Shown here in pieces: positions 18,867 to 23,337 of a stretch of DNA of 64,000 nt; position 1 is the stretch's first letter; every line of letters begins with the position of its first letter. The DNA comes from Carnobacterium funditum DSM 5970. GTDB lineage: Bacteria > Bacillota > Bacilli > Lactobacillales > Carnobacteriaceae. A model generated the notes under the pieces. It saw only the letters and a program-made list of their open reading frames with translations, did no database searches and was not told the DNA's origin. Where the stretch lies: positions 2,261,001 to 2,325,000 of the forward strand of contig NZ_JQLL01000001.1 of NCBI RefSeq assembly GCF_000744185.1, given 5' to 3'. The position numbers were made by a program, and so were the translations under genes.

Positions 18867-19930
18867 GTGCTAGGAACTTCAATTTTTCTTGGAGAGAATC
18901 TTAATGGAACGGTTAAAGAAAGTTTGCTTTCAATGAAAAAGCATGGGTTTACAGGTATTTTTTCATCTTTGCATATTCCAGAAGATGAAAGCGCACACTA
19001 CTTTAAACGAATGAAAATCTTAGGAGAGTGGGCAACTGAATTAGAAATGGAAGTCATGATGGATATTTCTGGCTCTGCATTACCAAAAGTCGGTTTATCT
19101 TTTGATAAACCACAAGAAATCCTGGCAATAGGCATATCAGGACTTAGAATAGATTATGGTATCAGTAACGAAATAATTATTAACTTATCACACGTTATGA
19201 AAGTTTCTTTGAACGCTAGCACTCTTACAGAAAAAGATCTAACTGAATTAAAAGCAGGAGGGGCAAATTTTAACCATTTAGAAGCTTGGCATAATTATTA
19301 TCCCAGACCGGAGACAGCTTTAGATAAAGAGAACTTTACAAAAAAAATCAATGGTTAAAGCAGGTTGGTTTTCGTGTTGTAGCTTTTGTTCCTGGCGATG
19401 ACCTATTAAGAGGTCCTCTTTTTGAAGGACTGCCTTCTCTTGAAAAACATCGTTATAGTCATCCATTGGCTGCGGCTATTGAATTGTTGACTGATTGTTT
19501 AGTGGATGATATTTATATTGGTGATCCAGGTTTAAAAAAGAAAACACAAAAGCAGTTCGAATCCTATTTTGAAAAAGATAAGATGCTTTTATTCGCTGAA
19601 CCAGAACAACAATCCGTTTATGCCCCTTCAGTAGCTGGCTTGCACCAGAATAGATGGGATGCAGCAAGAGACGTCATCCGTAGCGCCAACGCAAGATTTA
19701 AAAAGATTGATGAAATTATTCCAGAATCCCCCTTAAGTCGAAATAAAGGGAGTATCACGATTGACAACCAATACTATGGTCGTTACATGGGCGAAATTCA
19801 GATTTGCTTATCTGATTTGCCAACAGATAAAAAAGTGAATGTTGTCGCTCAAATAGTTCCAGAAGACCTTTCATTATTGAAATGGTGCAAAGGCGGACAG
19901 TCGTTTGAAATCACATTAACTAAACAGTAA
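18867..19930 (+). pseudogene. mupG: 6-phospho-N-acetylmuramidase (DUF871), frameshifted
   Basis: MupG hydrolyses MurNAc-6-phosphate-GlcNAc taken up by MurP, giving MurNAc-6P for MurQ. The first frame (GTG 18867 with GAGGTGGGG before it; MLGTSIFLGE start) runs to a stop at 19358. The rest, from about residue 165 on (VGFRVVAFVPGDDLLRGPLFEGLPSL...), continues in the -1 frame to 19930. The join is at an eight-A run, 19340-19347; nine A would give one 354-residue protein, close to the usual MupG length. In the reading frame the run presents A AAA AAA, a classic -1 slippage heptamer, so some full-length product might still form. It could also be a true mutation or a read error. Confidence 0.85.
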
Positions 19931-19946: not shown

Positions 19947-20834
19947 ATGAATTTAGAAAAATTAGCTACAGAAACAAGAAATAAACAAACCATGCACTTA
20001 GATGAATTATCCGTATTAGAAATGATGCAACTTATGAATAAAGAAGATCAAACAGTGGCAGAAAAAGTCGCAGATGAAATCCCACAGATTACTAAAGTTG
20101 TAGAAGCAATTATAAAATCATTTAATCAAGAAGGACGTTTAATTTATATGGGTGCCGGTACAAGCGGTCGTTTGGGAGTATTAGATGCAGCTGAATGTGT
20201 GCCTACATTTAGTGTAGATCCCAGTATGGTGCAAGGATTAATTGCCGGTGGGATGAAAGCGATGACAGTTGCAGTAGAGGGAGCTGAGGATTCAAAAGAA
20301 CTTGGTGAAGAAGATTTGAAAAAAATTGACTTATCTGAAAAAGATACCGTTATTGGGATTGCAGCGAGTGGTCGTACTCCTTATGTAATCGGCGGTTTAG
20401 AATACGCTAAAGAAATTGGAGCGATGACAGCTACTATATCATGTAATAAAGATGCTGAAATCAGCCAGTACGCACAACTTCCAATTGAGGTAGAAGTAGG
20501 TCCAGAAGTATTAACAGGATCAACAAGATTAAAATCAGGTACAGCTCAAAAATTAGTTTTAAATATGTTGTCTACAGGCGCAATGATTGGTGTCGGGAAA
20601 GTGTATCAAAACTTAATGGTTGATGTAAAGCCATCCAATAAAAAGTTAGAAGAACGTTCGAAACGAATTATTATGGAAGCAACAGCGTGTTCTTATGAAG
20701 AAGCAAGCAAAGCTTTCAAAAAAGCAGATCAGCAGGTGAAATTAGCTATCGTAATGATATTGACTGGTTTATCTAAAGAAGCGTCAGAAAAAAAATTAAC
20801 AAAAGCAAAAGGATTTATCCGTAAAACAATTTAA
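19947..20834 (+). CDS. murQ: N-acetylmuramic acid 6-phosphate etherase
   Basis: Cleaves the lactyl ether of MurNAc-6-phosphate to give GlcNAc-6-phosphate and D-lactate during cell-wall recycling. The SIS-domain sugar-phosphate site ([22 protein letters not shown]) and the family motif [19 protein letters not shown] are intact; 295 residues, normal. It has a good AGAGGAG ribosome site 16 bases after the mupG frame ends. It is the middle gene of the recycling operon and is intact, unlike its two neighbours, so it could still process MurNAc-6P from another route. Confidence 0.96.
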
Positions 20835-20868: not shown

Positions 20869-22349
20869 ATGGCTGAAAACAAAGAACAACGCTTAGCTAG
20901 AGAAATATACGCACAAGTAGGCGGGATGGGAAATGTAAATAAAGTTATTCATTGTATGACACGAGTTCGGATGGATATTAAAGATACTACGTTAGTTGAT
21001 ATGGTAGGTTTAAAGAAAATTGATGGAGTTTTGGGTATCGTTGAAGAAGAAACGCTTCAAGTAGTTTTAGGTCCCGGTATCGTAAACAAAGTAGCCAAAG
21101 AAATGGTGAAAATGGGAGGTGTAGGACTAGGAGAAATAATACCAGTTCAAGCTTCAACACAAAGCAACTCATCAAATGGTTCAGTAAACGGACGAGAAGA
21201 AGCTGAACGCAAGACAGCCATCACAAAAGCAGAACAAAAGAAAAAAATAACACGCCATTTAAACGTGCATTAAAATCAATTGCTAATATTTTCGTTCCAT
21301 TAATTCCTGCATTTGTAGGAGCCGGTATTATTGGCGGAATCTCTTCAGTCTTACAAAACTTGTTAACCGCAGGGGAAATTTCTGCAGATTATTGGGTTAC
21401 GATTGTTCTTGTATTAAATATCATTAAAAATGGATTATTTGCTTTCTTAAATATTTATGTTGGGATAAACGCAGCAAAAGTCTTTGGTGCTACTGAAGGG
21501 TTAGGTGGAGTTGTTGCAGGAATTGTTTACTTAACTGGAATGACACCTGAAATGCCTTTGCCAAACATATTCACCGGTGGAGATTTAATAGCTGGACAAG
21601 GTGGTATTATAGGTGTTGTTTTTGCAGTATACCTATTATCTCTAGTAGAGAAAGCATTGCGTAAAGTAATTCCTGACTCATTAGACGTCATTATAACCCC
21701 AACGGTATCACTGTTGGTTATTGGATTAAGTACAATTTTCTTTATTATGCCTCTAGCTGGTGTTATTTCAGCAAGTTTAGTTGGAACGATTACTTGGGTT
21801 TTGAACGTTGGAGGAGCATTTTCCGGTTTTGTTCTCGGTTTGACATTCTTGCCAATGGTCATGTTTGGCTTGCATCAAGTCTTGACACCCATTCATATTG
21901 AAATGATTGCTTCACAAGGTATGACACTACTGTTACCAATTTTAGCTATGGCAGGTGGCGGACAAGTCGGTGCAGCTTTAGCTCTTTGGGCAAAATGTCG
22001 TAAAAACAAACAATTAACAAATATGATTAAAGGTTCTTTACCAGTTGGAATATTAGGAATTGGAGAACCGCTAATTTACGCAGTTACATTGCCACTAGGA
22101 CGTCCATTTATTACGGCTTGTATTGGTGGCGGTATTGGGGGAGCAGTTATCGGTGGTATTGGTGGCATCGGGGCTACTGCAATCGGACCTTCAGGAGTTG
22201 CATTGATTCCATTAATTTTTGGTAATTTATGGTGGGGTTATGTGTTAGGCTTATTAGCAGCTTACATCGGAGGATTTGTTGTTACTTATTTATTCGGTGT
22301 ACCAAAAGAAGCTATGGAACCAACTGAACTACCATCAATTGAGAAATAA
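20869..22349 (+). pseudogene. murP: PTS MurNAc/MurNAc-GlcNAc transporter EIIBC, frameshifted
   Basis: MurP imports and phosphorylates muropeptide sugars. The first frame holds the EIIB domain with its phosphocysteine in VIHCMTRVR (about residue 28) and stops at 21273. The EIIC membrane domain ([20 protein letters not shown], then multiple membrane segments and [18 protein letters not shown]) continues in the -1 frame to 22349. The join is a seven-A run at 21241-21247; one more A restores a continuous protein of about 493 residues. AGGAGGG precedes the start. No EIIA is fused; the IIA would have to come from a separate gene, possibly the one at 24554. With mupG it is the second one-A loss in this operon. 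Confidence 0.85.
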
Positions 22350-22450: not shown

Positions 22451-22467
22451 AGGAAAGGAGTTTGTCT

Positions 22468-23337
22468 ATGCAAAGCAATCTATTATTTTTAATTCAAGAA
22501 CAACTGAATGATTTGCCCGAATCGGAAAAAAAAATAGCAAAAAAAATTCTAGAAGATCCGGCTGCGGTGATTCAAATGAATGCTACTAGTTTAGCAGCAA
22601 AAGCTGGTTCTAGTTCGGCAGCTGTTATTCGATTTTGTCATTCGATTGGCTTAGCAGGATTCACTCAATTAAAATTAAATTTATCAGCGGATTCTCAAAG
22701 TATCCAAGAAAAACTTTACAGTGAAATTCAGCAGGATGAAGATTTAGAGCAAATTAAAAAAAAATTTTTATTACAGACTCATCATGTATTTAAAGAAACA
22801 AACCAAAGTTTGTCATCTAAAGATGTATCAAAAGCATCCGATTGCTTTAATGAAAGTACGACAATTTATACCTATGGTTTGGGAGCCTCTCATTTGGTAG
22901 CAATGGATTTACAACAAAAATTCAGCCGACTTGGGAAATCAGTTATCTGTTCACAAGATCAGCATCTTCTAGCTACCTCCATGTCAGTAGCCAAAAAAAA
23001 AGCGGTGTTTTTTGCAGTATCTAATAGTGGAGAAAAACAGGAAGTGATAGCCTTAATGAAAATAGCGAAAAATCTTGGAATAAAAACTATTTCATTGACG
23101 AAAGAATCAGATAATTCGTTAAGTCAACTTGCAGATATTTCTCTGAAAACAGCCAATACACATGAAGCACCATTAAGAAGCGGAGCAACGGCTTCTTTAT
23201 TGGTTCAAATGTATGCTATTGATTTATTGTTTTATGACTTTGCTACAAAAAATTATCAAAAAACGATAGAAAATTTGGAGAAATCAAAAGATGCCATTCG
23301 AAATTTAACTCAGTACCTTGAAAAAGAAAACAAGTAA
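22468..23337 (+). CDS. RpiR-family regulator, probably of MurNAc use (MurR-like)
   Basis: 289 residues with an N-terminal RpiR-type helix-turn-helix (NATSLAAKAGSSSAAVIRFCHSIG) and a C-terminal SIS domain (IYTYGLGASHLVAMDLQQKFSRLG, VFFAVSNSGEKQEV) that senses phosphosugars. Position directly after mupG-murQ-murP suggests it controls that operon with MurNAc-6P as effector, through the TGAAAT-type palindromes upstream. That link is inference. ATG 22468 is used because GGAAAGGAG lies before it; a TTG two codons earlier is too close to the ribosome site. It lies behind a terminator, so it may be expressed mostly by read-through. Confidence 0.88.
   Translation: MQSNLLFLIQEQLNDLPESEKKIAKKILEDPAAVIQMNATSLAAKAGSSSAAVIRFCHSIGLAGFTQLKLNLSADSQSIQEKLYSEIQQDEDLEQIKKKFLLQTHHVFKETNQSLSSKDVSKASDCFNESTTIYTYGLGASHLVAMDLQQKFSRLGKSVICSQDQHLLATSMSVAKKKAVFFAVSNSGEKQEVIALMKIAKNLGIKTISLTKESDNSLSQLADISLKTANTHEAPLRSGATASLLVQMYAIDLLFYDFATKNYQKTIENLEKSKDAIRNLTQYLEKENK

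Follow-up and report, generated by a model that had tools for sequence, protein, structure and literature searches.

In S. aureus, mupG, murQ, murP and murR form one operon, in which MurP takes up MurNAc-GlcNAc and phosphorylates it, and MupG cleaves the resulting compound; in rich medium, mupG mutants of this species are only slightly impaired in stationary phase, and its murP mutants accumulate MurNAc-GlcNAc outside the cell in that phase (PMC6262408). Reading frames broken at homopolymer runs have been described in other settings: Blochmannia and Buchnera provide documented cases in which transcriptional slippage rescues poly-A frameshifts (PMC3017870), and among the errors that typically persist in long-read assemblies are run indels that break reading frames (PMC12007338).

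The MurNAc-GlcNAc locus and its relatives

We analysed a stretch of 64,000 nucleotides from Carnobacterium funditum DSM 5970 (C1:2261001-2325000; hereafter the window), in which mupG, murQ, murP and murR follow one another on one strand in the order expected of the operon. As listed in Table 1, murQ and murR are full length and the other two genes are each divided into two pieces, such that MurP is not readable as a single IIBC protein, nor MupG as a single protein. The original prediction placed a frame loss of murP at an A7 run in the linker between the IIB and IIC domains. The coordinates proved exact, with PF00367 (IIB, residues 11-44 of the first piece) and PF02378 flanking the break, and the top NCBIfam match of this first piece is PRK09586, MurNAc PTS IIBC. 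The mupG break, by comparison, lies inside the N-terminal domain, and the piece upstream of it aligns with residues 1-172 of the unbroken MupG of the nearest relative, G004. The gene flanked by the two broken ones, murQ, has an A8 run of its own at 20788-20795, which is unbroken.

Table 1. Features of the mupG-murQ-murP-murR locus (positions are those of the window)
Feature	Position	Strand	Remarks
mupG, first piece	18867..19358	+	MupG_N, PF19200, E 1.6e-46; broken at profile position 162 of 237
mupG, frame-loss site, A8 run	19340..19347	+	A9 in G004
mupG, second piece	19349..19930	+	rest of MupG_N + MupG_C; frame open; first usable start TTG 19466
murQ, MurNAc 6-phosphate etherase, full length	19947..20834	+	TIGR00274 above cut-off
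murP, first piece	20869..21273	+	IIB + linker + short out-of-frame tail; stop TAA 21271-21273
murP, frame-loss site, A7 run in IIB-IIC linker	21241..21247	+	A8 in G004 and G002
murP, second piece, IIC	21249..22349	+	PF02378 from about 21285; open to natural stop
murR, RpiR-family regulator, full length	22462..23337	+	frame open

The operon DNA is 86% and 81% identical to that of the two closest relatives. In the alignments, both downstream pieces match the unbroken G004 proteins once the frame is changed, the window being one base short in each gene, and each of the two runs is one A shorter than its G004 counterpart. The losses are thus of the same sign and size with murQ unbroken between them, as had been proposed, and the suggested comparison of run lengths in close relatives bore this out, the nearest relatives having longer (Table 1) or interrupted runs and all of the G004 and G002 copies being in frame. 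MurP and MupG are also single-frame in 14 of the 14 other MurP-bearing genomes of the family. A MurP match was absent from 3 of 18 family genomes, which indicates that the pathway is dispensable in this group. In a wider sample of the order, a MurP-like match was obtained in 133 of 246 genomes (for some, identity was as low as about 40-45%, and these may be paralogues); the gene was split only here and single-frame in the other 132, among which no conserved split was found. A Virgibacillus draft (L078) seemed to have a break in the linker too; as this fell past the linker run and the genome belongs to a different order, it was set aside.

At the linker site, this genome has a pure A-run in common only with G002 and G004, both A8, and in most other relatives the same residues are encoded by lysine codons interrupted by G or C. 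Judged by the sequences compared, neither the split nor the A-run is a conserved feature.

Age of the breaks and one-base losses elsewhere in the genome

We compared the pieces with G004 and G002, keeping each in its own frame, and counted lineage changes with G002 as the outgroup. The dN/dS of the mupG and murP pieces fell within the range of 315 other orthologues. In total, 27 amino-acid and 78 silent changes had accrued in these pieces on this lineage, compared with 46 and 90 on that of G004; no sign of relaxed constraint or of accelerated amino-acid change was seen in them on this lineage. Even if all the amino-acid changes postdated the loss, the neutral share of the branch would be at most about 10-19%. 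The lack of acceleration implies that the breaks are either very recent or not real, and old shared decay of mupG and murP was rejected on the lineage counts. Disabled by a mutation but otherwise hardly decayed, if at all, and with orthologues that are intact, the two genes have the features of recent pseudogenes.

As a background for these losses, we set 1.02 Mb of this genome against the corresponding part of G004 and found about 600 genes intact. In this sample, clean one-base A-run losses in this genome were found only in mupG, murP and gdpP. The last of these, encoding a c-di-AMP phosphodiesterase (C1:1564787-1566768), is split by one lost A and is elsewhere about 94% identical to G004; its split is either a real loss or a base-calling error, and such events are not confined to the MurNAc-GlcNAc pathway. 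A gene of peptidase family C69 (C1:1715676-1717147) is split by a two-base difference and is otherwise 95% identical. Among genes named by eye, an azlC/azlD-like pair (C1:2152570-2153578) is an old pseudogene with multiple stops and gaps, a murE-like ligase copy (C1:1939894-1941337) is decayed, with a one-base loss, a 17-base gap and a two-base gap, and an mscL-like gene of the 1.02-Mb sample is an older wreck with several lesions. The presence of older pseudogenes indicates that this genome does lose genes.

Competing readings of the two breaks

The reading that we favour, by a modest balance of the evidence, is that mupG and murP carry two very recent loss-of-function mutations that arose by replication slippage in the sequenced strain. 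Slippage would have deleted one A from the long A-run of mupG and one from that of murP, leaving living cells without these bases. As MurP and MupG act in series, loss of one would remove selection on the other, and under this relaxed selection the second mutation would be tolerated after the first, although we only infer the order of the two. The original prediction had called the pair of losses an unusual coincidence and had offered three readings of it. Of these, a joint loss of the uptake and cleavage of MurNAc-GlcNAc has the strongest support, and the other two, a switch and separate chains, did not hold up (see below). The coincidence stands insofar as the pairing exceeds chance: if losses were random, the chance of a second one hitting the same operon would be about 1-2%. 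It is tempered by the fact that long A-runs are common frameshift targets; given that A-runs are the fastest sites of loss and that the two proteins act serially, two same-sign one-base losses are to be expected rather than striking.

The breaks may, alternatively, be base-calling errors, our basis being one assembly of one strain. Both runs would then be one A short in the assembly only, with the genes intact in the cell, and we regard this as a substantial possibility, though not the likelier one. Such indels are the error type expected of long-read assemblies, and neither mupG nor murP is decayed, which would equally be expected if the genes were in fact intact. The third one-base A-run loss, in the otherwise well-conserved gdpP, points the same way. 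Moreover, one-base losses interrupt conserved genes at about ten places in the G004 assembly (C2:506033-507426 and some nine more), and tilS, usually considered an essential gene, is among those affected; this hints at errors in the G004 assembly, and assemblies of the group may carry such errors. Against this reading, a 624-kb subsample of this genome contained 113 coding A/T runs of at least 8 (8-10) in intact genes, and runs of that length are commoner here than in G004. Under-calling of long runs is therefore not general, and an overall compression of runs in this assembly was rejected on these counts. Furthermore, two of the three one-base A-run losses fall in one operon, whereas eight errors in the genome would give only about 0.05 expected same-operon pairs. 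This clustering, which was noticed post hoc, leans towards biology and is also compatible with two base-calling errors.

A third reading accepts the frameshifts and supposes that mupG and murP are nevertheless partly used, through stuttering of RNA polymerase or a -1 slip of the ribosome at the A-runs. Residual slippage would then lower cell-wall sugar recycling without abolishing it, which would explain why neither gene has decayed, and the rescue documented in Blochmannia and Buchnera provides a precedent. The mupG site, ACA AAA AAA ATC, holds an A_AAA_AAA slip heptamer at which -1 re-pairing of both tRNAs fits. In contrast, at the murP site, AAG AAA AAA ATA, the AAG before the run permits re-pairing of one tRNA only. 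A stimulatory RNA fold was sought downstream of both runs and rejected (z -1.0 and -0.7, not notable), so that the mupG A8 run has the heptamer without marked structure and the murP A7 run has neither. The runs are also short: the bacterial RNA polymerase tested in one study needed 7 T or more, and a still longer run of A (PMC6260861), and selection against runs is typically visible at nine (PMC1088944), against A7 and A8 here. Finally, a frameshift at these sites occurs in no relative, all others being single-frame, so the break is not conserved as a programmed site might be. Low-level frame rescue is possible, and we consider it unlikely to account for these genes.

Less credible still is a reversible contingency switch, in which both runs would vary in length within the population and toggle uptake. 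Both are homopolymers, so back-mutation is conceivable in principle, yet the pure linker run extends no further than two close relatives, where, compared between species, it is A8 in both and hence not a conserved tract of variable length. The off state was seen in no other genome of the family or of the order sample, and runs of such modest length are nothing unusual in this genome (the ORFs of the 624-kb sample contain 134 A/T runs of 8); we judge a switch very improbable. That IIB and IIC work as separate chains, as they do in some PTS families, can practically be dismissed: the IIB piece retains its domain, but in the IIC frame, stop-free from 21207 to 22346, no ATG, GTG or TTG precedes the TTG at 21360, so that no start codon lies ahead of the first membrane segment, and the TTG as an internal start would drop the first 37 profile positions of the domain, and the split form occurs in 0 of the 132 other order-sample genomes with a MurP-like match.

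If the slippage losses are real, this strain cannot import or cleave MurNAc-GlcNAc via MurP and MupG, while its close relatives can, and the locus would offer a clean snapshot of the first step in the loss of a pathway, taken by slippage in A-runs. The genome also encodes a second, intact MupG-family protein (C1:83607-84683), 30% identical to MupG and adjoining another PTS IIC gene, which might overlap MupG in function. The case calls for caution in a more general sense, as one-base A-run losses should not be taken as evidence of split-gene biology.

Comparison with described systems

The locus matches the S. aureus mupG-murQ-murP-murR operon (PMC6262408) in its four genes, their order and their domains, and differs from it in that mupG and murP are each one base out of frame. 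As in the poly-A tract genes of Blochmannia and Buchnera (PMC3017870), a one-base indel in an A-run interrupts a gene that is otherwise undecayed; the tracts considered in that work are of nine or more, whereas the runs here are A7 and A8, and rescue is only hypothetical. The likeness to long-read homopolymer errors (PMC12007338) is that a small run loss fragments an otherwise intact gene. Two points set the present case apart from such errors: the losses cluster in a single pathway, and the long runs of this genome mostly fall within intact genes.
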